In this document: piece by piece, positions 93 to 52,098 of the stretch
Layout: every line of letters starts with the position of its first letter
How positions within the stretch are numbered: the stretch's first letter is position 1
Origin: Platerodrilus igneus
Taxonomy: Eukaryota > Arthropoda > Insecta > Coleoptera > Lycidae
DNA length: 64,000 nucleotides
NCBI GenBank assembly: GCA_036346225.1
Contig: JARFIW010000900.1
Location: forward strand, 2,356,001-2,420,000
Reading direction: 5' to 3'
Notes under the pieces: generated by a model
Databases searched by the model: none
Told to the model about the DNA's origin: nothing
Seen by the model: only the letters and a program-made list of their open reading frames with translations
Made by a program: the position numbers and the translations under genes

Positions 93-2265
93 TGTAATGT
101 CGGTCCATTCAAAGTCACCATATGGAAGAGGTTGACTCATGGCCCACCCATACTGGTTGTTTATATCGAAATACATTAGATATTCATCAGGTTTGGATGA
201 ATCATAAGTGGGTAGATATTTATTGTTAACAGAGGCACATCGCTCCGAACACACTTGACTAAGACCCCCGCGTATACCCTTCTCAATAAACAAGAGTTGA
301 TGAATTTCCGTTAATAACTTAAGTTCCTGGTCTGAATGCTTTATCATTGCGTCCCAAGTATACCCAGGCAGTGTATAGTAGTGGGCGGGTTTTCAAGAAT
401 ATATTTAGTGAAAGAAATATACTTTTCATTAGTTACTGCGAGTTCCTCTATACGACTTTCTAAATTAATAGCAATGTCTTTAATTATAAAATGACAATCA
501 TAACCACTTAGGTTGTGAAAAACGATGGGAATTTTTCAAGAGTCTTGATGATTTATATTACAATCCGAATATGCTGGGCCTCTATAGTTATTAGCTGGTG
601 TAAAATGATTATGCCCAGGAACCTTTATATCTCCAACATTAAATGGTTTATCACAGATATAACAATGCGTTACGGCTATGAAATCGGTTTCCTGTTGCAA
701 TGTTAATGGGGTTACATCATACGGACACATAAAAACTGTTTCAACATCCTCTGCTAACTGTCGTAGCTCTTTTGAAACCCAATTTATGAATCTTCACCGC
801 GATATGACCGATACAACGGTAACGAGTTATCATACTCACACTTGACATAATATCCCACACTACACGGTATATGTTCTTGATATTTTTGAGCATCCCCAGT
901 GGGCTTCAAAAGACATTCTAAATCGGCATATACTACAAATGTAACTTGAACTTTGTTTCGAAAATTTCTAAAACGGAGGATTTTATTTTTTTCTGTAGGC
1001 AACCAAGGTACACCCTATTCTTTCACTTTACAATCATTCATATGTTTTATTAATTTTTCCTCTGAAATGAAGTAGTGGAGACAACGATTACAAAAATATT
1101 TTCTATTTTTCTTAACACTAACTTGAAAAGACACTAATCGACTCAAATCCTTGATCCATACATATTGGGAATTAAACGGTTCAATTATATCATAGATTTC
1201 CAAATCATCACCATAAGACCGGTTATGAATCATCAAGAGTTTAACATGTTTGTTTTTTCTATTATCTGATACGAACAAAGGAACGATTGTAAATTTTTGT
1301 TTGTTTAGTTTAAGAGTATATACATTAGCTGAAATATTATTCTGAGATTAAAAATTTATAATTTGATTTAGAGTCACAGGGAACTGGATACCTTATAGAT
1401 TTAATACAAATGAATAATGAGGATATTTAAAGAGCCTTTGAGGATCATGACCGATAGGGTAAAGTGCAGATACTATAGACCATGACATACTATATTACAT
1501 ACTATAGACACGCTGGTCATTATTCCTTACGTTAATACATGTCTGTTTACGTTGTATTTGAGGTGGCAGCTCGATATATGATGATTCTCGCATGGGGTCA
1601 TACTTATTTATATTAATACATAAATTATAAATACTTTTCAATATCCAACCATTATCACGTTCTTGAAAGTGTTCTATTTTCATCGTTATTGGTTTTACAA
1701 CGTTAGTAGCAAACCATATGTTCAGATCTGTATTCTTGAATATTGGCACGGTAGATGTTGTAAAATATTTATATTCTCGTTTAACTTGAGAACCGGGTAT
1801 AAGCTCAAACTCTCTGCAGAAGGATGTGTTTACCTTGATAACTTCATTTTGCTCAAGTGTAGTGTGAATTCTTCTCTTGAAAACACTCTTACAATCTGCT
1901 AAAAAGGTTTTTACATCTCTATGTTTCAGATTACTAATTACACCAATATGAATACGTCTTTTGAAAGCAGAAATCGAGTCCTCCCAACGCAATCGATGGT
2001 TAGCAGTCTCCTTTTTGTTTTGATACCCTGCTCCTCTCTTTTGTGCTACTTTCAATTGGGTACGCAAGGTTTTAATATTAGCCAAGGATGCCAGTAACTG
2101 CTGTTTTTCACCAACAGACTTTACATGCTTTATAGCATCATGTAATCTACGCATTCCAACCATGCATAAACGTACCCCTTCTTCAACCTGTTTAATTCTA
2201 TAATGGTGTTGCACCAACCCAAGGAGGGCAGCAATATTTTTTATTAGTTCCAAAAAACGATTCAT
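1..2265 (-). pseudogene. polB: Protein-primed DNA polymerase B relic (5' half), Polinton-like
   Basis: Reading the minus strand from 2265 downward gives a decayed family-B polymerase of the type found in Polintons and related insect elements. The first open block (2265-1495, 256 codons) has a helical N-terminal region. It ends in a conserved linker (YIELPPQI around 1560), the same linker seen in the intact-length polB at 40.6 kb. Further blocks follow at 1278-1015 (one CxxC...H zinc-finger-like motif, YFCNRCLHYF), 1002-784 (exonuclease I-like VVYADLECLL), 730-536 (zinc-ribbon-like CYICDK) and 347-18 (KGIRGGLSQ, then motif A-like DINNQYGWAMS). Frameshifts separate the blocks, and the stretch between the Exo II and Exo III regions (about 530-350) is missing or unreadable. 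The palm with motifs B and C is absent. The N-terminus differs from the zinc-finger N-terminus of the 41 kb copy, so this is another lineage. Confidence 0.8.
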
Positions 2266-4394: not shown

Positions 4395-5240
4395 TAGAGA
4401 ACAAGCGAAAACATTGTAATGTTAAGCTTGTTCAAAATTGGGATGGTAGGTATGGTGCCGAAGCTCGTATATCCAATCCTCTGTTCAGAAATCTAACAGT
4501 ATTTGATGAGAATCTTGTACTGGTTGTATTAGACAAATCAGAAATCTATTTTAATAAACCGATATATGTAGGGATGTGTGTACTAGACTTATCTAAACAC
4601 ACTATTTATGATTTTCACTATAAATACATGTTATGCACATTTGGAAAGGACTGTAGTGTTCTAAATACCGACACAGATAGCCTTACCTATAAAATATTAA
4701 ACCATGATCCCTATGAGGCGGGACTGTCACAAATATTTTGATACTTCAGACTATCAGCAGGACAACATCTATAAAATTCCTCTAGTAAATAAAAAAGTAT
4801 TGGGAATGATGAAAGATGAGAACAATGGACGGATTATGACCAACTTTATCGGGTTGAGATCCAAAATGTATGTGACGAAGGTCTTCAAAGCATCGGAAGA
4901 GGAGAAAGCTGAACGCTTGCGTATATAAAAAGATATTTCTATACCGCAAGCGGCTCTCTCTAATTTCGGTGTAACTAAAAAGGTCAAGGGAATTAAAAAA
5001 TCAGTTATTAAAAACCATATCACATTTGACGACTTTGCTCGTTGTGTAGATGAGTATAAAGAAAAGTTCATTTCACAAAATTTGATCCACTCATCTAAAT
5101 ATCATGTTCATACAATCATTTAAGATAAAATAGACTTAAGTCCACACGATGATAAAAGATATTTAATACCAGGATTAAACAAGACATTACCCATAGGTCA
5201 TTATTTCATAGATAGCATGGAAATTGTAAACGCGGTTTAA
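4395..5240 (+). pseudogene. polB: DNA polymerase B relic (3' end)
   Basis: This is the C-terminal palm and thumb of a protein-primed family-B polymerase. A motif B remnant (GKTIENKRKH) opens the block. Next comes FNKPIYVGMCVLDLSK, a palm segment, then motif C as NTDTDS near 4668, [19 protein letters not shown] near 4780 and [13 protein letters not shown] near 4850. The C-terminal end reads DKRYLIPGLNKTLPIGHY and closes at a stop at 5238-5240. At least two frameshifts and internal stops are visible, the region before motif B is missing, and the 5' side abuts the Gypsy RT. It lies in the opposite orientation to the 1-2265 relic, so the two are not halves of one gene. Motif C has N where the usual Y stands (YTDTDS). 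Confidence 0.8.
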
Positions 5241-36398: not shown

Positions 36399-36404
36399 AA
36401 CGGT
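36399..36404. repeat. 6 bp target-site duplication, left copy (AACGGT)
   Basis: AACGGT directly before the AGTAGTGCATAAT end of the element. The same six bases follow the other end at 52093-52098. Six base pairs is the length made by Polinton integrases. Confidence 0.95.
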
Positions 36405-36966
36405 AGTAGTGCATAATTGGGGCTTTTGTGACCTCATCTGAACCAAATAGTTTTCTTCGACTAACCATTTTCATCTTTCGAGCTAAATGTACCTTGTTTG
36501 GTATCAATTAATATTAGATTTTTCTCAGCTACCCGAATTTCTAGGAATTTTTTAGATAGCATCACCCCCCAGGGGGCTACCCACATTTTAAGATTTTTTA
36601 CCGCTAACATTCTGATCCAAATAGTTTTCTTCGACTAGCCATTGCATCTTTCGAGATAAACCTATCTTGTTTGGTATCAATTAATATTAGAATTTTCTCA
36701 GCTACCCGAATCTCTAGGAATTCTTTAGATAGCATCACCCGCCCAGGGAGTTACACTCATTTTAAGATTTTTTACCGGTAGCGATTTTTGACCATCCGCA
36801 TAAATTTTTTTATACATGTGGCACATCAAATTAGTCTAGAATTTTACGCAGAATTCGAATCTATAAACAGATTTAAAATCGGACTACCCCTTACAAAGTT
36901 ACACTTTAAAGCTCCCAAATCTCTTTAAAATTTTTGTCCATCTATGACATATGCTTTAACCAAGCA
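36405..36966 (+). repeat. Left terminal inverted repeat of the Polinton
   Basis: It matches the reverse complement of 51499-52092 with scattered substitutions. Relative to the right repeat it lacks ~30 bp after GTGACCTCAT. Inside it are two ~180 bp direct units (36429-36605 and 36609-36785) sharing CCAAATAGTTTTCTTCGACT, GGTATCAATTAATATTAG and TAGATAGCATCACC. The inner edge is at the word ATGCTTTAACCAA. Confidence 0.9.
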
Positions 36967-37248
36967 CTTAGAGGTATTAACACAAAGAAATTAAGCACAC
37001 AAAAGTTTAATAATTTATTTTATGCTATTTACAGTTTAATAAACTAATAGAATACAATTTTTACAAAGTATAACATTATTTTCTTCGTTTAACCAAATCC
37101 AAGCAGCTGAACGTAACCTGTAACAAAAACAATAGAAATTAATGTGTTGTTTAAAAAAGACCTATAACAAAAAGAGATTAATGTACTGTTTAATAAGAGC
37201 GGAAACGTGTTTTCGGTCAATAAGACATATTGTCGTTAATCTAACAAT

Positions 37249-37347
37249 ATGTTTTACCGTCCAGCGACACCACGTGGAGGTAAACAAATACATGTCGCCG
37301 GGGGCGAAGAAATTATTAAGGATGGGGATGGTAGGTATGTCTTATAA
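37249..37347 (+). CDS. Possible 32-codon ORF between left repeat and polB
   Basis: A short ATG-initiated frame with a basic start (MFYRPATPRGGKQIH) and a mixed-charge end (AGGEEIIKDGDGRYVL). It lies in an otherwise gene-free ~430 bp interval and is not recognisable as a known Polinton protein. It may be chance, or an old exon. Confidence 0.2.
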   Translation: MFYRPATPRGGKQIHVAGGEEIIKDGDGRYVL

Positions 37348-37397
37348 CTAACTTACATACTATATATACACAATAAAATATATACAAATATAAACAA

Positions 37398-40300
37398 TTA
37401 TCTTATATTTTTATGCACCCATGCATATGTTGATGTGCTTCCGGGGATGACATAACGTTTGTCATCGTCACCCGACAAACTAACCTTATTAAGTAACTGA
37501 GTGTACAACTGATGCTTAATACTGCGAATGCATACCATCGTATGCATGAGAGCTTAGCATTATCGTTGACTATACCTCTAAAACTATCTACACCAATTCC
37601 CTTAACAACACTACGAGAAATTCCTTTAATCTTTTTTACAACGTCTTTCTCACTTATTACACAGTACGACTTCGCTTTAGTACCAACAAACTCCAAGACC
37701 AAGTCACCACAAAACTCGTCTTTAAATTTTCCAAGCACTTTCTTGTTAACTAAGGGAATATTGTACTTATTGTTTGGGGGGTAATCACTTGTATCGAATA
37801 GGTCCAGGCGGGCACGAATATCACTGTACAAGTCTTCTGTTTCTACACTATACACGATCGAATCGGTGTCTGTATAAAGAAGCGAGATTTTGGATTCATA
37901 CAGATGTTTCATGGTCCCATAGTGAAAATCATACATTAAAGACTCGGAACGATCTAAAACTAACAGGCCCGCATAAATCGGCTTATTATAAGTAACTTTA
38001 ACTCGATTCATCTGTATGATTGCCAAATCCTCGCCTAGCACTAAACAACTATTAGAATTAGGTTTAGCAATCAACTTGCTAGCGCACAGTTTGTTACCAT
38101 TGAACTCCCACTGCGTGATGATTTTGACATCAACCCGCTTGTCTACATTCTCCATGGTTTTATCAAATATAGAATTATTCATCAGTTTGAAAAAAACTTT
38201 TTCAAATGCATTCTTGGCTGATGTTCTCAAATTGGTGTTTAAATCTTTATATGGTTTAAGCCATGAAGCCTGCTCGAATTCCAGCACTCGATGTACTGCG
38301 ATGAGTTTAAGACCATACTGTAATGCCTGTTGTAGATTGTGGTAGTGCACAACGTACTTCTTTTTATCCAAAAGAGTCGCAAGCAGATTAGAAGTTTTTG
38401 AAGTTGGAAGTTGTGGTACCATGCTTTCAGGACAAAATGGTAAATCATTATGAGCGTGGTGAAGATTTTCCGAATATTCTAAATCAACCTCTAGTATGTA
38501 CCCTTTGTCACTCGTGGAAGACGTAAATAAAATTTGATTTCGAATGCGATCAAGTTCTTCACCGCATACCCATCTAAAACCGCTTATAGGCAGATACTGG
38601 GACATAGCCCACCTATATAAATTATTGGCATCAAGATAAGTAATGTATTTAGAAGGTTTGCTAGCGTCATAGTCATTCATATATGCGTTGTTTGCTTTCA
38701 CATGTCTGTCACTGCATTGCGTGAGACCACCCCGAATACCTTTTCTGATAAAATGGTACATGTTTACATCCGTTAGTAAATCCAATTTAACCTGAGTATA
38801 CTTTAGCATCGCATCCCAGCTCGAGCTTGGTGCAGTTACATATTGACATAAGTCTAAATGATAAGTTGATATGCAGACATCTCTAAAATTTTCAAAAACG
38901 TCAGCTAACAACAGGACGTCTGTTTTTAAATAAAGATCGCTATATTCTCCTAATGTGCCAATCTTGAACTCATTCCATACCTGTTCTGCATCCCAGCTCA
39001 GGCTTGGTGCAGTTACATATTGACATGGGTCTAAATGATAAGTTGATATGCAGACATCTCTAAAATTTTCAAAAACGTCAGCTAACAACAGGACGTCTGT
39101 TTTTAAATAAAGATCGCTATATTCTCCTAATGTGCCAATCTTAAACTCATTCCATACCTGTTCTGCATGGTGATACTCTGCATCCGTTATATGTGAGAAT
39201 GTCAGATCATTGTAGAAGGCATCCTTTGGTGGAAGTTTAGTCTCGTTTAACACAGAGATGTCTTTGACGTATTTATATGGAAATACACCCTTCCGATTCA
39301 ATATAGCGAACTGAGCATCATTGGGGAAATACCTGCGGACTTAAGCGAATTGATGAGTATTTAAATTTCTAACCAATTTATCCAAACTGGTCGTCATGAA
39401 CCTTAGAGAATCTATAAACCTTAGTTGGATAACAGAATTATTTTTATCAGCATTATCAGCATCATCATCATCACAATCATCGATTTCAGCGCCTTGAGCT
39501 CCAGATAAACGTATGTTTTTTGTAAACGAAATAAATCGTTCTTTGTTATTTGGGATCACTGCAACGCGCTCCCTATCACAACCCAACTCCTTCACAATAA
39601 AATGGGAATCGTATCCTGTAAGGTTGTGGAATACAACAGGGATGAAATTTGGCATCCTATATTGAACGTTGCACTGGCAATGTGCAGCGAAGCGGAACTT
39701 TCCTGTTAGGTGGCAGTGATCCCTCACTCGATCATCACCCAAACGTTTCTGACAAATACCACACTCTTCATCCATATAAAAAAGAAGCTCATCCAAGGGT
39801 TCTAATGGTTTCATTGGTACATTAGTTTTTAAAATAGTACCCAATCTCTTTGATTCCTCCTTCAACATCGCCATAAATACCTTGGCGGCGTCGGGTCCTC
39901 TATACGATTCAAATTTATTAAGTGACTCATCATAAGAACATTTAACATAATAGGCAAAACTGAAAGGTTGATGTTGCTCAGTGCTGTTGGTGAATGGCAC
40001 GCTAGTGTTGGGCGTTGCAGAACTGATCGGTTTAAGGATGCGCTCAAAATCTGAGTAAATCACGAACGGCACCTCACCTGCTTGTGCACATTCTTAAATT
40101 CGACGATGCTGTTAAAGTGGTTCGGCATAGTGATGGCGACATGGTTGCATTCGTGCTCTGTATGCCGGCGTAATTCCTCCTCGGATTGGAAATATATAAG
40201 ACAACCATCACACAACCATTTGGATCCTCTGTGGGTAGACGACTGAGTTCTAACTAACCCATTCAAGTTTTTATTCAAACAAAAGTGTTGTTTATCTCCT

Positions 40301-41510
40301 TGCTGGATGTACAAAAGATTGACATGCCGTGTCCTCTTTCTTTGCGTGAAATGCAAAGGCCCCACAATCGACGTCCTTTCTACGCCAAACTCGTTAACGC
40401 TGACGTCGTTTAGCTCTTCAAACCTGTGTATATTCTTGAATTCCATAGGGAAATCTATACCATTCAAGTCCAATATTTCAGAGTAGTGCGGGTAGGATGA
40501 AGGTCGTAGAGGGTTTCCGTTTTTCCGTAGGATGCAATGCAGCCACAACACACCACGCAAAGCATGCGTTATCCTGGTTCTGGATGTTAACAACGACATG
40601 CTTGCCTCGGATCTATTTGGGGAGCTCGATGTACGAAGACCCGCGTAGAGGTTGGTACTTGTTTACATTGAGCTCCAAATAGAGTAGCTGTTGTAGTGTT
40701 CACCCTAAAACACAATGATTAAAATATATAAACAACGGGTTGTAAAACTTACCAGAATCTTGTTCCTGAAACTTGTCAGATTTTGCCGACATTTTTTCAA
40801 CCAACCCCTCATACACTTCACCCAAGTTACTTGATCTTGTTATCACTATATTGTTTGTGTTAAAGGATTTGACGTCTTCAACACGTTCTGTAACACCCAT
40901 CTTGGTATAGATACTAAACAACTCACAATTAATCTTGAGGGAGGTGTGTATAGCCAGTTGTTCATCAATTAAGGCGCTGAATCGTTCCCGTTGATTTCGC
41001 AAGAATTCCAATATATCTAGAAATAATAGCGTTAATCACTAATTCAAGTAGTTTTTTTTAAAACATACCACTAGTGTTAATATTTTTAATTCTGTATGTA
41101 GCGATTCTATTTCGAAACGCCGTAGCAACGATTTCCACACCATCGCCTCCGTCGAGTACCCTAGTCGCACTCGCCCTGTGCACATTAGAGCGCTGGTGGG
41201 CTGCAAATGCCCCGTCTGGGATATCCACATTGTACTCAATGCATCTCCTCGGTATCTTGGGAGCAGGCCCCTCAACCGCAGACAAAGCAGGTCTCTTAAC
41301 CCCGGATGGGCCGGCAACTGGCACCACACCATGCTTGGTGTCCTTGTGCCGCTTCAAGTTATCGCGTCTAGAAAACGATGCCGAGCACACATCGCAGTCA
41401 AAAAGGCATGAGGGTTTCGACACTACTCCATGCTGCTGGAGCTTTTGCCTCTTCAAGTTATCGCTCCTCGAGAAGGAAGCCCCACAGACATCACAAGTAA
41501 AGAAAGCCAT
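37398..41510 (-). pseudogene. polB: Protein-primed DNA polymerase B with N-terminal zinc fingers, three exons
   Basis: Replicates the element from its ends with a protein primer. Exon 1 (41510-41069) starts MAFFTCDVCGASFSRSDNL and holds two C2H2 zinc fingers. A 52 bp intron (GTATGT...TTCTAG) leads to exon 2 (41016-40753). A 48 bp intron (GTAAGT...TTTTAG) leads to exon 3 (40704-37398). Exon 3 has the YIELP linker, the exonuclease I block PFVIYSDFERIL near 40070, zinc-ribbon CGICQKRLGDDRVRDHCHL near 39780, FHNLTGYDSHFIVKELG (Exo II), YSDLYLKTDVLLLADV (Exo III), palm motif A YLDANNLYRWAMS, motif B FFKLMNNSIFDKT (G to D against the usual YG/FG) and an intact motif C YTDTDS. Lesions: in-frame stops near 40702, 40626 and 39343, frameshifts near 40535, 40075 and 37510, and a 177 bp in-frame tandem duplication of the Exo III segment. 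The end is the stop at 37398-37400. Confidence 0.85.
38815..39170 (-). repeat. 177 bp tandem duplication within polB (Exo III motif doubled)
   Basis: Two in-frame copies of a 59-residue segment beginning AEQVWNEFKIGTLGEYSD and ending TAPS-SWD. They differ at only a few bases (for example HLDPCQY against HLDLCQY). The copies join at a CATCCCAGCT word shared by both ends. The frame is kept. Confidence 0.9.
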
Positions 41511-41589
41511 TTCATTGTAAATAACTAAAAAAGCTTGTTTACTAGTCAAAGACTAAACAGAAACTGAATTTATATCGCCTCGTACCATG

Positions 41590-41597
41590 CTTTTATA
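41590..41597 (-). promoter_or_regulatory. TATA-like box upstream of polB
   Basis: Minus-strand TATAAAAG lies ~80 bp before the polB start at 41510, with a second AT-rich ATATAAATT at 41569-41577. Placement is reasonable for a core promoter of the polB transcript. Inferred from position only. Confidence 0.35.
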
Positions 41598-41938
41598 CAC
41601 ATAATAATTAAGATCGTATAATAATTGGGTAGTTCACTTTAAAATTAGAATAAACCCAAACGTAGTTTTAGCCTTGAATTATATTTCAAACTAGTCTATT
41701 CACATCGGTGAAAACTAGTTAGCTCTCTGCTTACTCATGCATTCCAAACTAGTCTAATCACATCAGTAAAACCTAATATTCTTAACTAACCTTGAATCGG
41801 ATTACAAAGCAGTTCATGCCTGTCTGTAAAGTACTGCAAATGATAGTGAGGAGCATGCGCAAGAGCAATTTGAGAGATATAAGATGAGAATAGCATAGGG
41901 TTCTTTATCAGTCATCTTAGTGAAAGCAGTGTGAAGCA
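41598..41938. promoter_or_regulatory. Divergent intergenic region between polB and the plus-strand genes
   Basis: About 340 bp between the two divergent transcription units. It contains two or three imperfect copies of CAAACTAGTCTA(T/A)TCACATC(G/A)GT (41689-41715, 41745-41771), a possible shared regulatory repeat. No open frame of note. It is the natural place for the element's divergent promoters. Confidence 0.4.
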
Positions 41939-42730
41939 ATGGAGTCTGTAGGTGCTAGTAATGCACAAGTTTCGTATACCGAAAATCTGATTAATAAGTT
42001 TACGTATATTTTAAATGAATTGGGTGAACAACCTCATAATGTGGAAATTGAGTTTGTTATAAACCAGAGAATAAAACCCGTATTACAATTGGTGTGTAGC
42101 AAGAAATATTGCATCAACCATGTTCTGGAATTGACATACGAAAATTGATTAGCATTTACAAATTTTCACGTGGAATTTCAAATTAACGTATTTTCCCGTA
42201 ACGTGTTAAATACTCGATTAAATGGTGCAACCGAAATGGAAAATCTACACATACAACTAGGAGCTCCGTTCTTTATCACTCTGTCACCAGCGTCTGGGTC
42301 AACCAAGGACGAAACGTTCCAGTTAAAAATAATAATGGGTAATAGTTCGATAGTTATAAACAAATTGGAGTGCCGTAAACTATTCCATATGCGAGAGTTG
42401 TTTGAGTATCAACTTAAGCAGTTGAAAAGTCGTGACTTTCCAGCATTATACAGCGAATTAGTAGGGTTTGTTGCTAATTCTAATTTAAATGATGGTGATT
42501 GGTTTAATACTCTGACTGAAGGGGAGAAACGAATTAAAATCTTGGTTGAAAGCGAAGTTCGAATTGGCAATATTTTATTCTACAACGAATCGACTTAGAA
42601 TGCACTAAATGCTTTGGAGCTGGTTATATGTTTTTCGGATATATTTGTGCAAGACGTGACACGTACAAGAACATTGGTGGAAATGTTTAGACGTTTAAAT
42701 TTGTCGGATTCTGAAGATGGTGATCACTAG
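41939..42730 (+). pseudogene. Unknown Polinton gene, open frame with two in-frame stops
   Basis: One reading frame of ~263 codons runs from ATG 41939 (MESVGASNAQVSYTEN) to TAG 42728-42730, interrupted only by TGA at 42146 and TAG at 42596. Between them the frame is clean (42149-42595), and the C-terminal ~44 codons after the second stop look coding and end acidic (LSDSEDGDH). I do not recognise the family. The content is mixed alpha/beta with no membrane segment and no cysteine motif. Position as the first plus-strand gene, before the PLA2 ORF, suggests an early or accessory role. Two isolated stops with no frameshift look like recent point mutations. Confidence 0.55.
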
Positions 42731-42894
42731 AGGGAGTATCTTATAAACAGTTAGGTTGTAGTTATAGTAAACAAGTGTAACGAACAACAACTGTGGTCAC
42801 CGCTCAAGAGACGTAGATGTAAATATATTGTTTTTGTAAATGTATTGTTTAAGTAGTTTGTGAAACTAAAATATATATAAATTTTTTAAAAAAG

Positions 42895-42903
42895 TATAAA
42901 TAG
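42895..42903 (+). promoter_or_regulatory. TATA box upstream of the PLA2 gene
   Basis: TATAAATAG lies 54 bp before the ATG at 42957, preceded by an AT-rich stretch. It is a textbook match to an animal/viral core promoter, and the run of tightly packed virion genes starts just downstream. Confidence 0.5.
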
Positions 42904-42956
42904 ACTCGCTGTTGTTTATTTATTTAGTATAGTTTGAGATTTTTTTGAGTAAACAC

Positions 42957-43379
42957 ATGAATATCTGTTCCGGAGAGGGTTTAATCAACAGCGCTATAAA
43001 CAGGTTACCGTTTGAGCTGCATATTCCAGGTTATCAGTACTGCGGCCCTGGCACAAAGTTGAATGAGCGTTTAGCGAGAGGTGATCAAGGAGCTAATGAG
43101 TTGGATCGCTTGTGTAGGGACCACGACATTGCATACTCCAAGCACCCAGACGATCTTCCAGCCAGACATCGAGCAGATAAAATTTTAGAACAAGGAGCCT
43201 GGGAGAGAGAGTCTAAGAACGCAAAGTTTGGGGAAAGAGCTGCAGCTTGGTTTGTGACAAACGCTATCAAAGCGAAGAGAAAAATGGGTATGGGCTTAAA
43301 GAAAAAAATAAGTTTCAAAGGTGGATTCTTGACGAAAATACGATCCGCAATAGACCGAGTTGGTTCCGACAACTTTTAA
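42957..43379 (+). CDS. Phospholipase A2 domain protein (virion-associated type)
   Basis: A 140-residue protein starting at ATG 42957. The PLA2 signature is plain: YCGPGTKL is the calcium-binding loop and LDRLCRDHDIAYSKH the catalytic helix with the His-Asp pair, at about residues 24-65. This is the compact PLA2 of the parvovirus-capsid type, which in those viruses acts on endosomal membranes during entry. PLA2-like ORFs are known in adintoviruses/Polintons. A basic, lysine-rich C-terminus (KRKMGMGLKKK) follows. The frame is intact and the catalytic residues are present. Its end overlaps the start of the next ORF in a different frame, and that next ORF has no ATG, so the two may once have been one protein. 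Confidence 0.85.
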   Translation: MNICSGEGLINSAINRLPFELHIPGYQYCGPGTKLNERLARGDQGANELDRLCRDHDIAYSKHPDDLPARHRADKILEQGAWERESKNAKFGERAAAWFVTNAIKAKRKMGMGLKKKISFKGGFLTKIRSAIDRVGSDNF

Positions 43380-43757
43380 AAAGCTACTAGACGTTGGTAT
43401 TCTAATTGGTAAAAAAATCATAAAAGGAGCTGGTGGGAGAAGTAAAATTAAAGTCCCACGTATTATACCCGTTCCACAGAAAGGAGGTTTTTTATCATTG
43501 ATTCCGATATTCGCAGGACTAAGTGCCCTAGGAGCACTAACAGGTGGTGCTGCGGGGATAGCTAAAGCAGTAAATGATGTCAAGACAGCCAACGAGCAGC
43601 TTAAGGAAAGCAAACGGCACAACAGATCTATGGAAGCCATTGCCGTTGGGAAAAAAGGAAATGGAATGTTTCTAAAACCGTACAAAAAGGCACAGCATTA
43701 TTCTTGAAACCGTACAAACAGGGGCGTGGTGTTTGTAAAAAAGTATCAAACAACTAA
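43360..43757 (+). CDS. Small hydrophobic virion-core-like protein (adenovirus pX-like)
   Basis: The frame opens within the last codons of the PLA2 gene without an ATG. It encodes a basic segment (IGKKIIKGAGGRSKIK), then a glycine/alanine-rich hydrophobic helix (IPIFAGLSALGALTGGAAG), a short helical stretch (NDVKTANEQLKESKRHNRS) and a repeated FLKPYK motif. The first FLKPYK is at 43668-43692. A second lies in the shifted frame up to the stop at 43757, so one frameshift near 43695 separates them. This layout matches small core or pX-like proteins of adintoviruses and Polintons. The role is inferred: condensing DNA or lining the particle. Confidence 0.6.
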
Positions 43758-44111
43758 GCAAGTTACCTCGAAGAGCTCTCACCGACGTAGATATAAAGAA
43801 ACACGCATCTAACATTCCTCATTTTCGCGGCGTCTTTTCTAGAGATCAATTACAGAAGATTAGACCGTATGTCAACGAGTCGGGTGTGATTAATTTAGAT
43901 ACCACCAAAGGGTCAGGTACACATTGGGTGGGGTACCGAAAACGTGGAAATAGTGTGTTTTACTACGATTCGTTTGGAGACGAGACCACCGGAAGAAGTG
44001 AAGAGATATTTTCGAGGTTGTAAAATTTACTACAACAGTGTACCGGAGCAGACTTACAATACTTACAATTGTGGGCACTTAGTGTTAAAGTTTCTTAGTG
44101 ACAATGGCTAA
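43758..44111 (+). pseudogene. Adenain-like (C48/Ulp1-type) cysteine protease, frame-broken
   Basis: Would process capsid and core proteins. Coding begins just after the previous stop (LPRRALTDVDIKKHA, FRGVFSRDQL). The catalytic histidine is in GTHWVGYRKRG (about 43918), and the acidic residue in VFYYDSFGD (about 43960-43980). A frameshift near 43985 moves coding to another frame: RPPEEVKRYFRGCKIYYNS, the likely oxyanion Gln in PEQTYN, and the catalytic cysteine in YNCGHLVLKFL (about 44070). All triad residues are readable but in two frames. No upstream ATG in frame is seen. The stop at 44109-44111 overlaps the penton ATG (ATGGCTAA). Confidence 0.75.
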
Positions 44112-44898
44112 AACAGTGAGCGTGTTCGGGTATGGTAATGTCATATCGACAGGATCCATTTACCCACCAATTAAATTGAAACAGGATGGCGAATATGCTT
44201 TGGGTCTAGTGGGACTGTATACTTGTAACACTGTGCAAAACATACATCCAGGAAACGACATCTTATACTTTAACGATCCAGAGCATCGCAGAATAACCAT
44301 TGAACCTGGATCATACGAATTAGAAGAAATAAATGCATGTATACAGGACGTTTTCAAAAAATGGTTCAGTCAGAAGCCGGACATCAACGAGAGCATTGAA
44401 AAATATTTTAAACTGAGTGCCAACAATAATACATTAAAGTGTTCTATACGAAGCAGTATACCGATTGATTTTGGGACAAACCGTAAAAACAGTATTGGAA
44501 GCATCTTGGGGTTTACCAATCGCAAATTGGCTGCAGATACCGTACATATCGCTAATCAGCAGCAAGTGAACATAATATCGGTCTCAAACATTTTTGTGGA
44601 AACCAATATCACCGCAGGATCGTTCAGAAACAATTTTCTTACCCACAGCATATTCAAATTCAGTCTATCTGTACCACCTGGATGTAATCTGGAAAAGGAA
44701 CCTAACCACGTCATATATTATCCACTGAGCGTGACAGAAATTGATAATATTACAATCAGATTAGTCGATCATTTGGGTGAATTGGTAAACTTTTCACCGG
44801 AATCATACACCTGTGTGAGACTGGAAATAAAAAGTAGTCGAAAATGCCCATCGATTTTGTATATAAAACACGCTACAACACCCCCAGACGACCAGTAG
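44104..44898 (+). CDS. Penton / minor capsid protein
   Basis: An intact 264-residue protein. The ATG at 44104 is preferred over the in-frame GTG at 44098. The N-terminus MAKTVSVFGYGNVISTGSIY and the blocks YALGLVGLYTCNTVQNIHPG and IEPGSYELEEINACI are typical of the Polinton/adintovirus minor capsid (single jelly-roll penton) protein. No lesions are seen. It overlaps the protease end on the left and a small ORF on the right, in the usual order protease, penton, major capsid. Would sit at particle vertices. Confidence 0.8.
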   Translation: MAKTVSVFGYGNVISTGSIYPPIKLKQDGEYALGLVGLYTCNTVQNIHPGNDILYFNDPEHRRITIEPGSYELEEINACIQDVFKKWFSQKPDINESIEKYFKLSANNNTLKCSIRSSIPIDFGTNRKNSIGSILGFTNRKLAADTVHIANQQQVNIISVSNIFVETNITAGSFRNNFLTHSIFKFSLSVPPGCNLEKEPNHVIYYPLSVTEIDNITIRLVDHLGELVNFSPESYTCVRLEIKSSRKCPSILYIKHATTPPDDQ

Positions 44899-45005
44899 TG
44901 AATACGACGTCAAAGCATCAAGTTGTCGAGAAGCTTACAGCAGAAGAAATACGTTTCTTAAAATCTTTGGGATTAAAAGTTATAAATGATGGGTGGCAGA
45001 AGTAA
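44844..45005 (+). CDS. Small ORF between penton and major capsid (53 codons)
   Basis: ATG at 44844 lies inside the penton end, and the stop at 45003-45005 lies inside the major capsid start, so it overlaps both in another frame. The N-terminus is basic (YKTRYNTPRRP). The C-terminus LTAEEIRFLKSLGLKV resembles a short helical motif I associate with small ORFs at this position in Polinton-like elements. The link is from memory and modest. Intact. Function unknown; possibly a capsid cement or scaffolding peptide. Confidence 0.5.
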   Translation: MPIDFVYKTRYNTPRRPVVNTTSKHQVVEKLTAEEIRFLKSLGLKVINDGWQK

Positions 45006-46302
45006 ACGCAGCTTAGATCTTCACGGTGATGAAAACGTTAAACTTGGAGGGCTTAAATATGAGGACGAGGATGTGTTTGGAGGTTATAAATTAGACGAAA
45101 CCATAATAAAAGAAGATTATTATACATATCTTCCCTTTACATTGAATGCAGATAACAACGATCGAATTTCAATTGAAATCCAGAGCAGTGATAACATCAC
45201 ATATCCCCATGAAAGTTTCACATTTATAAGGGATACCTATAAACCTACGGAAACATTAAGAGAAGCGTCAACAACTGTAGACCCGATTAGAGCAGTAGAA
45301 CCAGACCCTAAAGCTTACGAATTTACTAGAAATGCACCATATTTTCTGTTTGAGGAAATTCAATACAAATTGGGTAATAATCAAATAATAGATGTCTGCA
45401 GAATCCCTGGAATTACAAGAATTAAGGGTTTAGTATCCATGGAAGAATCAGAAACAAAATCTATTACACATACCGGGTGGAAGCCCGATACCATATTCCA
45501 AGATGGACGGTTTAGTTGTACTATACCACTAAAAACCATTTTTGGTTTTTTTGAAGATTACAAGAAAACTATCGTGAACATGCCTCAAGAGCTGATTTTA
45601 ATCCGATTCAAGTCGGACGTAAATTGCTACAAGTCGATTGGAAATACAGTAACGTTCAAAATACAACGTATTTCATGGGAGGTTCCGCATATAACATTAA
45701 GTGACTTCGCCAAGGCATCGCTGCTATCGGAAATGCAAAATCAATCATCTATAATGGTCGCATTCAGAAAATGGGAACTACACGAATTACCGTCTTTAAC
45801 AGAATCAAAGTCACAAGTATGGAGAATTAAAGTATCGAACGAAACAGAGAAGGCTCGATGGATATTACTGGCGTTGCAAAATGGGAAGTACGACAGGAAA
45901 GAAGAAAATGCTACGAGCTTTACGAATGCCAATATAACCAATGTTAAAGTGTTTTTAAACTCTCAGGCATTCCCTCAAGGTCGATTAAATTTGGATTTCG
46001 AGCAGAACGACTACTTGCCAGCGTACCTGTCTTATGCATCTTTTATGGAAAAATACTACCCGAACAAATCGTCAAATAAATGTTTAATGAACTACAACAG
46101 GTTTAAGGACTCACCCTTCTTTGTAATCGACTGTCGTCATCAATTTGAAAGCATCAAAGATGCAACGGTTGATGTAAGAATGGAATTAGAAGCTTCAAGA
46201 AATTTTGAACCGTCGATGAAGGCTTATGCTTTAATTATACATGATTCTATGTTTGAATATAATCCGTTTACAGAAATTGTTAATAGATTTATTCACAATT
46301 AA
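44986..46302 (+). CDS. Major capsid protein (double jelly-roll, hexon-like)
   Basis: An intact 438-residue frame, the usual length for Polinton major capsid proteins. ATG 44986 is followed by a second at 44989. Landmarks: the N-terminal arm with YEDEDVFGGYKLDE, then YYTYLPFTLN, TRNAPYFLFEEIQYKLGNN in the first jelly roll, EKARWILLALQNGKYDR in the second, and FKDSPFFVIDCRHQFESI near the C-terminus. These agree with the conserved pattern of these capsid proteins. No frameshift or stop. A poly(A) signal-like AATAAA lies at ~46323. Would form the trimeric capsomers of an icosahedral particle. Confidence 0.85.
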   Translation: MMGGRSKRSLDLHGDENVKLGGLKYEDEDVFGGYKLDETIIKEDYYTYLPFTLNADNNDRISIEIQSSDNITYPHESFTFIRDTYKPTETLREASTTVDPIRAVEPDPKAYEFTRNAPYFLFEEIQYKLGNNQIIDVCRIPGITRIKGLVSMEESETKSITHTGWKPDTIFQDGRFSCTIPLKTIFGFFEDYKKTIVNMPQELILIRFKSDVNCYKSIGNTVTFKIQRISWEVPHITLSDFAKASLLSEMQNQSSIMVAFRKWELHELPSLTESKSQVWRIKVSNETEKARWILLALQNGKYDRKEENATSFTNANITNVKVFLNSQAFPQGRLNLDFEQNDYLPAYLSYASFMEKYYPNKSSNKCLMNYNRFKDSPFFVIDCRHQFESIKDATVDVRMELEASRNFEPSMKAYALIIHDSMFEYNPFTEIVNRFIHN

Positions 46303-46453
46303 ATATTTTGTATATATATTCTTAATAAAATAGTATAAAAGCAAGGAATTAATTTGTTTCAATTAGTCTACTTTTATAGGCGAATGGTGAGCATCTCCCA
46401 CTCTGTAAATAAGTTCTAGTTATTTTAATGCGAATTTACCTCTATCAGAATAG

Positions 46454-46613
46454 AATGAAATTGCCCCATAGGGTGAAATTGCCTCATAGGGTGAAATTAC
46501 CCCCATAGAGTGAAATTGCCCCATAGGGTGAAATTGCCTCATTGGGTGAAATTGCCCCCATAGAGTGAAATTGCCCCATAGGGTAAAATTACCTCATAGG
46601 GTGAAATTGCCTC
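46454..46613. repeat. Minisatellite, ~18-19 bp unit, about nine copies
   Basis: Head-to-tail GTGAAATTGCCCCATAGG units with variants (CCTCATAGG, CCCCCATAGA). It lies in the 330 bp gap between the major capsid gene and the next start codon. No frame across it is coding. Confidence 0.9.
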
Positions 46614-46630
46614 CGCCAGTATTGGTTAGT

Positions 46631-47519
46631 ATGGTTCGCAATTACATAAGAAGACGAAATAGTGGATACTGTAAAGAAGCGTTAGAAAAAGCTATAGAAG
46701 AAGTTAGACTGGGTAAATCAACTATTTATTTACTCCATCAGTAGAAAATATAATATACCGAAAGAGACGTTAAGGTATCACCGCAAACAGCAACAAAAGC
46801 AGGAACACACTCAAAGCAATATGGAGACTGCAAAACAAAAAATTACAATACCTATACAGAATTATGATAACTTTGCTATTGCTAGTGCAAAAGAGGATGG
46901 TAAACATAGAGTTTTGTTCCCGTCTAACATACGAGCTATATTCGCTAGACCATCGAGTTGTGGAAAAACCAATGCCTTAATATCTCTGATCTTGCACCAG
47001 AATGGGCTTAGATTCCAAAATGTCTATGTATTTTCGAAAAGTTTATATCAACCGAAATACGAATTGTTAAGAAACGTTTTTAAACCATTAAAAGAAGAAA
47101 TTGGGTACCATGAGTTTGAAAATTACGATGATTTGATTGAACCCGGAGATACCAAACAAGATTCAATTATGGTTTTCGATGATATATCTGCAAACGAGCA
47201 GAGTAAAATCACACGGTTTTTCGCGTTCGGTCCACATAAGAGCATTGCTTCCTTTTACTTACGTCAAACTTACGCTAGTGCCTTAAAACATAGACTCAGA
47301 GATAACGCCAATGTAATTGCATTATGGAAACAGGATGAAACCAATCTCAGACATATCTTTCTTGATCATATAAGTGGCGACATGTCATATCCAAAATTTA
47401 AACAAATATGTTTGCAGTGTTGGGGTGACTCAAAACATAATTTTATAACTATTGTGAAAGATTTGGATTTGGATAATGGTCGATATAGGAAGAATTTCGA
47501 CGAGTATATAAATATTTGA
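46631..47519 (+). pseudogene. Packaging ATPase (FtsK/HerA type) with upstream HTH-psq segment
   Basis: The ATPase body is open from ATG 46821 (232 residues): ITIPIQNYDNFAIASAKEDG is the typical N-terminus, IFARPSSCGKTNAL the Walker A (with R where glycine is usual at the first position) and DSIMVFDDIS the Walker B. Its role would be DNA packaging. In front lies ATG 46631 with MVRNYIRRRNSGYCKEALEK and IEEVRLGKSTIY, a pipsqueak-type helix-turn-helix start. After a frame break at ~46740, NIPKETLRYHRKQQQKQEHT follows in the same frame as the ATPase and runs straight into it. So the HTH and ATPase appear to be one original frame. If the HTH is dispensable, the ATPase alone is intact. Confidence 0.75.
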
Positions 47520-47560
47520 TATTATTCAAAAACTAGTTAGTTCCCATCCAGAGCCTGATA

Positions 47561-48476
47561 ATGACGGATGTTAAAGATTTTATTGCAAATAAACGTAAGC
47601 TTCATCTTATGCAGGATGTTGTACGAAAAAAGTTTGTGGCATACAAAAAGGGAGACACTACATCTTATCAAAAATTCAAAAAAGCTCACAAACAATTGAT
47701 CGACCCCTTGCAAATAACCGCTTCCCAGTTGCAAGCAATCACCGAAAAAATTCCCACACCTACAACAAGGGTTAAACTCGAAAACATGGAAGTACCTATA
47801 AAGAAAATTAAACAACTCGTTCCAGAAGAACCGTTCCATCTTTACTATGCAAATGTGTTAGCTAGAGCCGTAGACGAAAATATTGACAAATCAATTTATG
47901 GAGTAAAGTATAATGCGGAAACCGACTCATGGAGTTTGTGGAAAAGTGTATTGGTAATTAACCCGGAAACTAGCGATATAACATTAAATATGTTATATAT
48001 CCGGGTACGAGAGGTTTATACAATCTGCTGGTTTATAAAGACGTCAGCCCCGAAGATGGTGATTTCAATTTGCATGAAGATTTGCCGAATTACTTGGAAA
48101 TGATCAAATCAGCATCGATTTTGAGTAGAAAGTTTGACCCATTTGCGGCGCACGGTTTAAGCGGATTTCCAACAAATAACAAAAAGTTTAACAAATATGT
48201 GCAAAAATATCTCACCGAATTTCGGAGGAACCCCGAAAGAAAACAGCTAATGAGATGAAAACAGCCTAAGGGAGCTGTTTTAGGCTTTTCTAATCGGTTT
48301 TACAAAAGTTTGAATTCAAAGCCGGTGCACTATATCTACTGGAATAATGTACATGAACTTGTGGATCGGCTGAGATTGTTGAACGCATTCAACCGAGCTG
48401 GAAATACAAGCGAGGAAAACATTAACGAGATGGTGTCCATAATAGAAGAGTTGAGAGAAGAAGGTATAATACAGTG
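47561..48476 (+). pseudogene. Unknown Polinton gene, ~305 codons, two lesions
   Basis: ATG 47561 begins a lysine-rich helical region (DVKDFIANKRKLHLMQDVV). The central FHLYYANVLARAVDENIDKS and SLWKSVLVINPETSDIT follow. A frameshift near 48000 moves the frame to GLYNLLVYKDVSPEDGDF and LHEDLPNYLEMIKSAS. TGA at 48256 is followed in the same frame by KGAVLGFSNRFYKSLNS, HYIYWNNVHELVDRLRLLNA and IIEELREEGIIQ to the stop at 48474-48476. The C-terminal WNNVHELVDRLRLL...SIIEELRE block resembles proteins found in other insect Polinton-like elements, of unknown function. Position between ATPase and fibre-like gene suggests a virion or assembly role. Confidence 0.6.
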
Positions 48477-48505
48477 ACCTCAGTAAATAATTACACAGTT
48501 TTAAA

Positions 48506-49179
48506 ATGCCCGTCGACCGCTTTGGACGTTCATAGCGTAAAGATGCCGATATTCGGCGTGGTCCTCCAGGTCGAGGATTTGTACTAACGTTGGATGGTGA
48601 TGGATACGATATGCAGCAAAGAAGGTTAGTGAATTCATCAGACCCGAAAGAAGATTATGATTGTGTTAATCAGAGAAGCACTATAGTATTCAAGTCTGGA
48701 GAAGAAACAATTAGTTTTCGTAAAAGAAGGTTAGTTGATGTAATGGATCCTAAAGACGATAGTGATTGTGTTAATAAGAAATCCGCAATCAAGCTCGTGA
48801 ATCAACCCTTTTCATACTGTCTAAAAGTTCTGATGATATACAGCGTAAAGATAAAGCCTTCAATGCAAGAAACCAGCGTATCACAATGCTTGCTCACCCG
48901 GTTGAACCATCTGATGCAGTTAATAAACAATATGTAAATGAAAAATTGGATAAGCTTATATCTGACTTTAAAACGTTTATACAGTTTTTTATGAATTTGA
49001 CTGCAACTTCTGAGACAAACGAGAAGGAGCTCGGTCTCGCAATATCATCGATTTACGAGGCGTCACCAGCAGCTATAAAAAACAAATACTACAAACCAAA
49101 GCTTCAGTTTATGTCAAAGGTGCAACTAGATAAAGATAGCCCTATTAGTTTAGCAGCAGTGTTAAGCAAAAATGAGTAA
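48506..49179 (+). pseudogene. Fibre-like protein with repeated DAVNK-type motif
   Basis: Starts at ATG 48506 (MPVDRFGRS), with an in-frame TAG at 48533 then RGPPGRGFVLTLDGDGYDM. Three copies of a motif follow: RRLVNSSDPKEDYDCVNQ, RRLVDVMDPKDDSDCVNK and, after a frameshift near 48800, MLAHPVEPSDAVNKQYVNE. The pattern, a strand, a proline turn and D(A/C)VNK, is the one used in trimerising tail/fibre shafts. The C-terminus (SDFKTFIQFFMNLTATSETN then ISLAAVLSKNE) ends at the stop 49177-49179, which overlaps the integrase ATG. Inferred role: receptor-binding or vertex spike. Broken by one stop and one frameshift. Confidence 0.55.
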
Positions 49180-50106
49180 AGAAATCATCGTTAAGGAATT
49201 ATTTAATCCTGCAAGAAAAAAAATTTTTAGCGTCGTCATACAAATCTGAAAAATGCGAAACGTAATCTTATCCAATCGAACTTGTGCGAAATGCAACCTT
49301 ACTCGCGTGTGAACAATGGGTACAGATATATTCTAATAGCGGTAGACTGTTTCACAAAATATGCTTTAGCAGAGCCCTTTAAAAAATAAAACTGGATTAG
49401 AAGTTACAAATGCTGTGAAAAAAATATTGAATAAAATGTTGCAAGGAGAAAATAACGCAAAAATCAATCTACAAACGGATTTCGGGAAAGAGTACTACAA
49501 CCGCTGGGTTAAAAATCGTATGCAAAAATATATGGTGAACCATTACTCTACGTATTCCGCAATCAAAGCTAGTATGGTTGAGCGGTTGATCAGAACAATA
49601 AAAAACAAATTGTACAGAAGATTTTACTTGCAAGGCAGTCATAGATGGTTGGATATTTTGCCTAAGCTTATGGAAGAATACAATAATACACCGCATCGGG
49701 CTATTAACATGACACCTATGGAGGCGGAAGAACATCCGGAAATAAATAAAACTTTACACCGCTGACAGTGCTTCTAAAAGTCGCAAAAAGTTGTATAAGG
49801 TTGGAGAAATTGTGCGCATATCAAAATATAAAGCAGTATTTGACCGAGGATTTCACCCAAACTGGAGTGCAGGACTATTCAAAATTGTTAAAGTACAACA
49901 AACGAAACCGATAACCTATCTGCTACAAGATTTGGAAGGTCGGCCAATCCTAGGTACTTTTTACGGCGATGAGATTCAGCTCACAGCAGCATCCGACACA
50001 TACCTAGTGAAAAAAAGTTTTACGGAAACGGAAGCACGGACGTGAACTATTAGTGTCGTGGTTGGGAGATGGTAAAAGTTGGATTAAGAAAACAGACTTG
50101 CTTTAG
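49172..50106 (+). pseudogene. Retroviral-type integrase with chromodomain-like tail, frame-broken
   Basis: Inserts the element and makes the 6 bp duplication. ATG 49172 overlaps the previous stop (ATGAGTAA). Coding reads MSKEIIVKELFNPARKK, shifts, then gives MQPYSRVNNGYRYILIAVD and KYALAEP. The first catalytic position, just before the MQ, is glutamate rather than aspartate in the readable frame. The second is in LQTDFGKEYYN (about 49480), the third in ASMVERLIRTIKNKLYRRF (about 49570). After a stop at 49763 the next frame (49791-50045) has the SH3-like VGEIVRISKYKAVFDRGFHP. A final frameshift near 50010 reaches a short chromodomain-like WLGDGKSWIKK and the stop at 50104. At least four frame breaks, so inactive as it stands. 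Confidence 0.85.
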
Positions 50107-50243
50107 TATCAACCAAAGTTCTAGATAATTACCTAGTTGAAAAAATAATAAAAAGCGTTGGCGGGGGTAAAGACCCCCTAGCTGGATAGATAGGAGAGAT
50201 TTGCTTAGAAGCCCATTTCCATTTATGATTTGAAGCAGGAAGC

Positions 50244-50723
50244 ATGTGTTTCATAATTGATTTACAAGGATATCAATACAAAACTAGTGATTTCTATTGC
50301 AAGAAGATCGCCATTTTGGATGTAGCGAATAATGTAATATGGCATGAGATACTGAACATGGTGGTTGAATATAACACCCTAAGTGATGATTTCAAAAAGC
50401 AGTTCCAGTGGTTAAAGAAAAGAATCCATGGACTATGCTAGGATGAACAATCTACGAGTGGATATACAAATGTGGGTGATTTACTGAAAGAAATCATACC
50501 TCCCGAGGCTACTGTCTATGTTAAAGGAGAACCGAAGAAGCAGTTACTATCGAAATATTTATCAAACAACATTTTAAACATGGAAAGTGTATTCTCACTT
50601 CCAAGACTCAAAGAATTAAGGAGATTCGGTGATAGATACAATTACTGTTTAAACCATTGTTTGAATAACTTAAGCTGTTTCAAAGAGAATGTTTTACTGT
50701 TACAACCTTTTGTTAATGTATAA
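50244..50723 (+). pseudogene. Unknown Polinton gene, 160 codons, one in-frame stop
   Basis: A single frame from ATG 50244 (MCFIIDLQGYQYKTSDFYCK) to the stop 50721-50723, interrupted only by TAG at 50439. The N-terminal IIDLQGY...CKKIAILDV pattern is a beta-strand pair with an acidic residue that could be an RNase H-like/exonuclease fold. This is an inference from pattern only. The C-terminus is cysteine-containing (YNYCLNHCLNNLSCFKEN). I recall similar small proteins in insect elements but cannot name the family. An AATAAA-like poly(A) signal lies at ~50738. It is the last gene before the right inverted repeat. Confidence 0.5.
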
Positions 50724-50759
50724 ATGTATTTAATTTTTAATAAAATATTTGTGGGGAAT

Positions 50760-51498
50760 TGTTTTTTATTTATCTTAGCTAAAAGTTTATTTTTAAAATT
50801 TGAAAAAAATATATATGTAAAACAGTGCTTTACTTTAAAAAAATTAATGTTTTAAAAAATACAATCAGAAACAATAGTAAAATACACAATAATTGGTGTT
50901 TGCAAATAAATTCAGTTCTATTTTAATAAAAAATGCAGACTTACCTTAAATTTTCAATATGAGGAAAAATAACTACACGAAACGATTTGGTTTAAAATTT
51001 CGACGAACTTTACACAAAAGCGTGCGAAACTAATAGAATTTACTAATCAGACCGCGTTATATACGGTTTGAAATAATTACCGTTAATTGATCTGTATTAC
51101 TAAATGAAGTTTGTATTTCCCTAAATACGTAGTCGAGGATGGTTACTAGAAAGTACCTTGTGTGAATCCCCAGCAATTATACGTCAATTTTTAATGCACT
51201 ATATTCAAACATAATTAATAGAAAGTCCAAGAAAAGAAATTATATACAGCTTTCACATGTAATTTGGGTAATCCATTATCGTCAAGGAAACGACTTGTAT
51301 TTTCCCAAGCATTGAGCATATAATTATTTGTGACGTACTTAGTAATTAAAAAAATGTTAAACCAGAAATTGATAACTGTTTAAAATTTTAAAAGTCATAG
51401 TTTTGAAGATTTACAAAAACTATTGGTTATAAATATTAAACACTTAGGGCCCATAAAGGACTCATTTCTAAAACTCTCGCGTTTTTAATTTTTGGAGA
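50760..51498. other. Gene-free interval before the right inverted repeat
   Basis: AT-rich DNA inside the Polinton. No ORF or repeat is seen. Confidence 0.5.
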
Positions 51499-52092
51499 TG
51501 TTTGGTTAAAGCATATGTCATAGATGAACAAAAATTTTAAAGAGATTTGGGAGCTTTAAAGTGTAATTTTGTAAGGCGTGGTTCTATTTTAAATCTGTTT
51601 ACAGATTCGAATTCTGCATAAAATTTTAGACTAATTTGATGTGCCGCATGTATAAAAAATTTATGCGGACGGTCAGAAATCGCTGCCGGTAAAAAAATCT
51701 TAAAATGAGGGTAACTCCCTGGGGGGTGATGCTATCTAAAAAATTCCTAGAGATTCGGGTAGCTGAGAAAATTCTAATATTAATTGATACCAAACAAGAT
51801 AGGTTTATCTCGAAAGATGCAATGGCTAGTTGAAGAAAACTATTTGGATCAGAATGTTAGCGATAAAAAAAATCTTAAAATGTGGGCAGCCCCTTGGGGA
51901 ATGATGCTATCTAAAAAATTCCTAGAAATTCGGCTAGCTAAGAAAAATATAATATTAATTGATACCAAACAAGGTACATTTATCTCAAAAGATGAAAATG
52001 GTTAGTCGAAAAAAACTATTTGGTCCAGATAAGTGAGGAAATGAGGGATTCTGGAAGAAATGAGGTCACAAAAGCCCCTATTATGCACTACT
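51499..52092 (-). repeat. Right terminal inverted repeat of the Polinton
   Basis: Reverse complement of the left repeat with scattered changes, 594 bp against 562 bp. It ends TTATGCACTACT at 52092. It holds ~30 bp (about 52036-52065) absent from the left repeat. Like the left repeat it carries two internal direct units. Confidence 0.9.
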
Positions 52093-52098
52093 AACGGT
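52093..52098. repeat. 6 bp target-site duplication, right copy (AACGGT)
   Basis: Exact match to 36399-36404. Confidence 0.95.

Follow-up and report, generated by a model that had tools for sequence, protein, structure and literature searches.

The window analyzed here is the whole 64,000-nucleotide stretch C899:2356001-2420000 of the Platerodrilus igneus source assembly (2.71 Gb, 1,723 contigs), and it contains a Polinton/Maverick insertion of 15,688 bp, present as a single element at positions 36405-52092. This is a canonical adintovirus-type Polinton, whose left and right halves are distinct. The element itself belongs to a known type; what is new is a set of palindromic relatives in the same assembly, in which one end region of the element occurs twice, facing outward, between ends of the element's own type and 6-bp target duplications.

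Borders and gene content of the window element

The insertion is bordered by the hexamer AACGGT (36399-36404 on the left and 52093-52098 on the right), which the outer ends of the element touch directly, with AGTAGTGCATAAT on the left and the reverse complement of AGTAGTGCATAAT on the right. The left terminal inverted repeat (TIR), at 36405-36966 on the plus strand, begins with AGTAGT, and the right one, at 51499-52092 on the minus strand, ends with ACTACT; the two arms, of 562 and 594 bp, respectively, are longer than the first-pass annotation had said, and within each of them a stretch of about 174 bp is directly duplicated. The exact junction coordinates bear out what that annotation had claimed about the borders, namely, identical AACGGT copies and AGTAGT inverted-repeat ends, and its reading as one clean insertion of 15,688 bp also holds. 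The objection that AACGGT might stand there by chance is countered in two ways. The hexamer alone is not rare (11 occurrences on the plus strand of the window versus 11.7 expected), the chance of finding it at one given place being 1.8e-4, and it is the exact contact with both ends that chance does not account for; furthermore, the same layout with other hexamers recurs at 11 more loci with window-type ends (10 with identical duplications and 1 with a single mismatch) and at three loci of other end types. Rfam and tRNA scans of the window found nothing.

On its left side, the element carries a polymerase gene in pieces, all on the minus strand. The C-terminal piece (37403-39340; PHROG DNA polymerase, 7.5e-6; no Pfam match) includes an in-frame tandem duplication of 177 bp (38811-39164), and the N-terminal piece (39341-40093; PHROG DNA polymerase, 2.4e-6) lies in the same frame and is cut off by one stop. 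Two further pieces upstream, at 40060-40662 in another frame and at 40700-41035, were assigned to the polymerase by position and by tblastn in relatives. The family B polymerase is recognized by the two PHROG matches; Pfam DNA_pol_B_2 matched one piece below the cut-off (0.0015) and the other not at all. Elsewhere in the window, at 105-1650 (minus strand) and 4457-5186 (plus strand), we could notice pieces of a second, diverged Polinton-type polymerase, with 37 to 58% protein identity to that of the main element and no DNA similarity found. Next to the polymerase, a C2H2 zinc-finger protein (41058-41552, minus strand; zf-C2H2, 1.8e-9) is encoded.

All the following genes are on the plus strand. 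An open frame of 149 amino acids (42149-42598), with diverged relatives in other elements, precedes a PLA2-like protein (42933-43379; PF08398, 1.9e-10) and a protease candidate (43739-44023), which continues in another frame. The labels of this candidate and of the packaging ATPase candidate rest on position and motifs, as no family model matched either of them, Pfam included; in the protease, the motif is what we take to be an adenain-like one. The open frame at 44104-44898 encodes a predicted penton protein, assigned by fold: the model, obtained from the window protein with 23 of 43 relatives, has a mean pLDDT of 85.1, and its top match among solved structures is the mavirus penton (7.7e-10), followed by adenovirus penton bases, with modest TM-scores of 0.35 to 0.45. 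The major capsid protein, a double jelly roll of 438 amino acids, is also open (44986-46302; PF21738, 1.5e-73). Its 32 relatives in the protein database include, among the named ones, beetle proteins (Ignelater luminosus, 50% identity; also Aromia, Exocentrus, Diabrotica, and Euwallacea) and one insect adintovirus hexon, that of Bos-associated insect adintovirus 2 (35% identity; E value, 1.5e-66). From these relatives, the host would probably be an insect. Sequence searches of the PDB gave no match for the polymerase piece and only two chance-like rows for the capsid, and among viral_contigs relatives, four stretches fitted the capsid pattern and none was confirmed.

Between the capsid and ATPase genes, there is an 18-bp minisatellite (46432-46632, plus strand), which varies in unit and sequence among copies (18 bp in the window and 15/30 and 16/32 bp among L054, L055, and L056), so that, on sequence comparison, it looks as if it had been repeatedly replaced. 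A stretch at 46640-46820, just upstream of the ATPase candidate, presumably encodes a putative psq-like helix-turn-helix motif in two frames. The core of the ATPase candidate (46698-47519) is open and shows, by eye, a Walker-like motif, with no Pfam or PHROG match. It is followed by an unknown protein in two overlapping frames (47537-48258) and by a fibre-like protein, also in two overlapping frames (48536-49179; PF03906, 2.1e-4, below the cut-off; PHROG tail fibre, 2.9e-5), whose stretch 48778-49179 resembles phage tail fibres, although it lies in an animal element. The C-terminal part of the integrase (49370-50045) occupies two frames, 49370-49765 and 49746-50045, with a stop-interrupted upstream part; this broken gene gave a weak PHROG transposase match (5.8e-5) and no Pfam rve match. 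Near the right end, an open frame of 93 amino acids (50442-50723) is kept in relatives.

In its size, its TIRs, and the target duplication of 6 bp, and likewise in its double-jelly-roll capsid, its penton, and its pieces of a polymerase and a putative integrase, the element agrees with Polintons/Mavericks as described in PMC6431247; different from these, the window copy is decayed, and among its relatives with window-type ends, palindromes of a single end region are frequent. The capsid is recognizable by BLASTp against an adintovirus hexon, in line with PMC11071296. However, the window holds an integrated copy with broken genes, and neither the N-terminal OTU-like domain nor the integrase chromodomain had a Pfam match in the scanned, broken pieces of polymerase and integrase.

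Age of the window copy and size of the family

The first-pass annotation had described a full replication and virion gene set with few lesions per gene. The genes are indeed present, and those for the capsid, the penton, the PLA2-like protein, and the ATPase core are open, but the polymerase, integrase, protease candidate, and fibre-like genes are broken. In the polymerase, one in-frame stop separates the two main pieces, and upstream frame changes and the 177-bp duplication add to it; the integrase is split over two frames, with upstream stops. The inverted repeats, which had been called near matching, proved to be diverged, as 530 of 560 aligned positions are identical (23 transitions and 7 transversions, 5.4% different), with five gap events, one of about 31 bp.

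Since its arms are diverged and its polymerase and integrase are broken, the window copy by itself is no evidence of recent activity; it is an old copy, decayed since insertion in its replication and integration genes. A recent, active insertion would agree with the frames that are still open and with the perfect target duplication. It would also agree with the arms of two closed canonical copies, C1378 (16,627 bp, AAAGTC twice) and C668 (16,472 bp, TATGTA twice), which differ by about 9% and about 5%, respectively, so that arms may not be identical at insertion; because of this similar divergence, we use arm difference as an insertion date with caution. Given the 30 differing arm positions, the five gaps, and the four interrupted genes, we nevertheless regard such a recent insertion as improbable. 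The recent activity that had been proposed does suit the family, on the evidence of the copy C1076 described below, and not the window copy.

Other copies, intact ones of which that annotation had held to be plausible, do exist in the same assembly, and many of them have open capsid and ATPase frames. In the capsid and ATPase searches, the best candidates were scored first, which favours intact copies, and the shares reported are no totals. With the capsid gene as query, all 96 scored candidates (best of 11,052 loose ones) matched with 94 to 100% identity, and 74 of these matches, the window copy included, have no stop; with the ATPase, all 150 scored candidates (best of 13,718) matched with 86 to 100% identity, 142 of them without a stop. 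Eight of the 96 capsid copies were compared with that of the window, and all eight are open, with 95.3 to 96.3% DNA identity and a dN/dS of 0.09 to 0.17. From these copy counts and low dN/dS values, we consider the family to be large and the capsid gene to be under purifying selection.

Palindromic relatives and the hairpin repeat

A search with the left arm gave 55 matches from 40 scored candidates (best of 5,081 loose ones), the main non-self matches being 88 to 94% identical. By our count, the 40 scored TIR places correspond to 34 elements, 27 of which were read; 12 could be closed, meaning that both ends and the duplications were found, 14 were not closable, and 1 (C1069) was dropped, as its inverted repeats continue into another repeat and it has no AGTAGT ends. 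For each closed element, we determined the share taken up by inverted repeats inside the element that span 150 bp or more with 80% identity or more. This share is 7% in the window element and rises through C1318 (CTCGCC, 11%), C1054 (CAAATC, 20%), C993 (TATGTG, 27%), C1 (GTCAAT, 39%), and C181 (ATTGAG/ATTAAG, with one mismatch, 50%) to C1689 (GCTAAG, 69%), C1245 (AATAAA, 71%), C1102 (CATTTC, 72%), C1253 (CACATT, 75%), C891 (CCAAGG, 79%), and C553 (GATATC, 86%). Thus, 6 of the 12 closed elements with window-type ends are 69 to 86% inverted repeat, each with identical 6-bp duplications. This proportion is no population estimate, because palindromes, being shorter, are easier to close, and the six represent five lineages at most, because C1245 and C1689 are one lineage. 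On elements with window-type ends, there is also a gene that the window element lacks (L032:819-2588), about 780 amino acids long in insects (34 relatives), whose product has a fold weakly like those of rolling-circle initiators and TBP; pieces of it occur in L019 and L034 and related DNA in L025 and L036.

The palindromes are built in more than one way. In window-element positions, C891 runs from 15662 to 8331 with gaps, through a hairpin repeat, and from 11227 back to 15662; that is, both of its arms come from the right half, and the loop is unique. C1 reverses direction between positions 14103 and 14101, where 424 bp intervene that include a 158-bp hairpin; one of its arms also carries an insert of 2.2 kb. 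In C1102 and C553, it is the left (polymerase) side that is doubled, and in C1245, C1689, and C1253, the arms mix sequence of the left end with sequence of the right end. C1245 and C1689 are the same palindromic element at two loci, 92% identical over 5,240 bp and flanked by different duplications (AATAAA and GCTAAG, respectively), which indicates that this element was mobile as a palindrome.

Fresher examples came from the 150 scored ATPase matches, among which there are two head-to-head pairs, C1076 and C1148. C1076 (9158671-9173235; 14,565 bp) has ends of another type than the window element. At its centre, 514 bases (257 pairs) match perfectly as an inverted repeat, in the middle of which lies a 54-bp hairpin that shares 81% identity with the hairpin repeat described below, and the midpoint of the element falls within 4 bp of the hairpin centre. 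About 6 kb out, 686 of 687 arm positions match, with one gap, and at the ends 287 of 287; this gap is the only one in all the 1,231 positions sampled out of about 7,280. With arms practically identical, C1076 is better evidence of recent activity of the family than the window copy. In C1148, position 8502 is followed by 9387 in an asymmetric switch, which shows 4 bp of overlap, a short tandem duplication, and no hairpin; the 106 arm bases visible on both sides are identical, the outer ends not having been read.

Long-read and amplified libraries are known to yield perfect palindromes as artefacts, through fold-back chimeric reads or missed adapters. In C1076, however, TTGATA stands at both borders, and the host flanks beyond are not mirror images; moreover, the arms of the older palindromes differ by several percent, and one palindrome is present at two loci. 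An artefact of assembly or library is therefore, in our opinion, very remote as an explanation.

The hairpin repeat, with a stem of up to about 80 bp, was found in 8 of the 36 loci examined and is absent from the window. Its stem has short TTAGG-like runs (L007:131-288; L057:228-281), TTAGG being the insect telomere unit, and a link with the protection of ends is conceivable. We rejected the view that canonical elements normally have the hairpin between their capsid and ATPase genes, as none of three such intervals of main-family copies contains it (C1378 and C668, both closed, and C170, not closed); all three carry a minisatellite. A search with the hairpin alone gave 1,249 loose candidates, 40 of which were scored, and shows it to be a dispersed repeat. 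Each of the five places examined, the best scoring besides C1, has sequence outside the hairpin in common either with the ATPase gene or with loci that have window-type ends. Two of them (L052 and L053) are hairpin-centred palindromes, whose arms were read over about 1 kb and are 97.4 and 95.6% identical, respectively.

In view of this dispersion, the hairpin could be a bystander, namely, a repeat that moves about and prefers, or survives best in, the centres of palindromes made by simple template switches, all the more so because C1148 and three older palindromes (C1102, C553, and C1253) turn without it. Its position fits such a role less well: the hairpin starts at most 7 bp from the arm end in C1245, C1689, and C891, overlaps an arm end in C1241 (not closed), lies 22 bp from one in C1054 and between the arms in C1, and forms the centre of C1076. 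We consider the bystander reading unlikely.

Origin of the palindromes

The palindromes most likely existed before integration, because they have ends of the element's own kind and 6-bp duplications and because the flanks of C1076 are not mirrored; for the latter, a fold-back in the chromosome is disfavoured, as it would mirror the host flank too. Polintons are thought to replicate as linear DNA with protein-primed ends, for which direct evidence in animals is, to our knowledge, scarce. The reading that we consider probable is that the window Polinton inserted once, as a linear DNA with TIR ends, and that the palindromes arose by a turn back before integration and integrate in trans. The element would be copied outside the chromosome as a linear molecule, starting at the TIR ends; the growing strand would fold back at an inserted hairpin, or switch to the opposite strand, and then copy back to its own end. 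The resulting palindrome, with two good ends, could be copied and integrated in trans by the enzymes of intact copies and would in this respect be like a snap-back defective genome. Protein priming, the use of helpers, and free molecules are steps that we infer. This origin is favoured by the symmetric layout of C1076 around its hairpin and by the presence of the C1245/C1689 palindrome at two sites, which shows it to be mobile.

The main rival is conversion in place, in which one half of an integrated copy overwrites the other: to repair a break, a TIR would invade the opposite TIR (in the same copy, in another one, or in the sister chromatid) and be copied inward from there, the old duplication being kept. 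A TIR1-F1-F1-TIR2 model of this kind is proposed for Galileo in PMC3573991, according to which an expansion of inverted repeats has also been reported for Polintons, and the mosaic arms, together with the variable TIR length in this genome, attest to exchange between ends. However, C1076 is symmetric in all the stretches sampled along its 14.6 kb, so that the copied tract would have to stop exactly at the hairpin, and conversion in place does not suit one palindrome at two sites with different duplications. We consider this route unlikely.

Several observations also weigh against a turn back before integration as a general account. Canonical copies exist too (the window element, C1378, and C668), and the low number of head-to-head pairs (2 in 150 scored ATPase matches) implies that palindromes may be a small share of the family. 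The turns without a hairpin in C1102, C553, C1253, and C1148 do not require one, the mosaic arms of C1245, C1689, and C1253 show recombination between ends, and the closed set (12 of 27 elements read, out of 34) is biased to short elements. To these are added the unread outer ends of C1148 and the fact that no free linear molecule was seen.

Among known systems, snap-back or copy-back defective viral genomes and the palindromic derivatives of protein-ended linear DNAs carry a second, inverted copy of one of their ends, and some of them have an asymmetric loop. Likewise, in C891, C1, C1102, C553, and C1076, and not in the window element, both ends derive from the same parental end, inverted; different from snap-back genomes, the Polinton palindromes sit in the chromosome between target duplications, and one kind of them has increased in number. 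Galileo and Foldback elements, as presented in PMC3573991, share long, variable inverted repeats and copies that are nearly all inverted repeat. They are, however, cut-and-paste DNA transposons, whereas the Polinton family encodes a polymerase of its own, and in C1076, a fresh copy, the two sides of a hairpin mirror each other wherever they were sampled. When the frames of the window were scanned with Pfam, no P-type or other cut-and-paste transposase came up, although no search was aimed at such enzymes. Since the expansion of inverted repeats in Polintons is already stated in print, long inverted repeats as such are not new. Within the partial coverage of our literature search, which left out most subscription journals, no paper had palindromic Polintons as its subject by title.

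It is possible to hypothesize, more tentatively, that hairpin-turned palindromes are a regular second form of these elements: half-genomes with two replication ends, self-folding and easy to restart, dependent on intact copies and integrating in trans, which may arise whenever the mobile hairpin lands in an element and whose integrated remains may document, as fossils would, that Polintons replicate as linear molecules primed at the ends. Palindromes bordered by ends of the element and by target duplications constrain the intermediate, in that the integrating molecule has two TIR ends and a strand has to be capable of reversing its direction beforehand, and the order of events can be read, because the arms range from practically identical to several percent different. 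A satellite class made by the elements themselves would bear on how virus-like elements are held in check.

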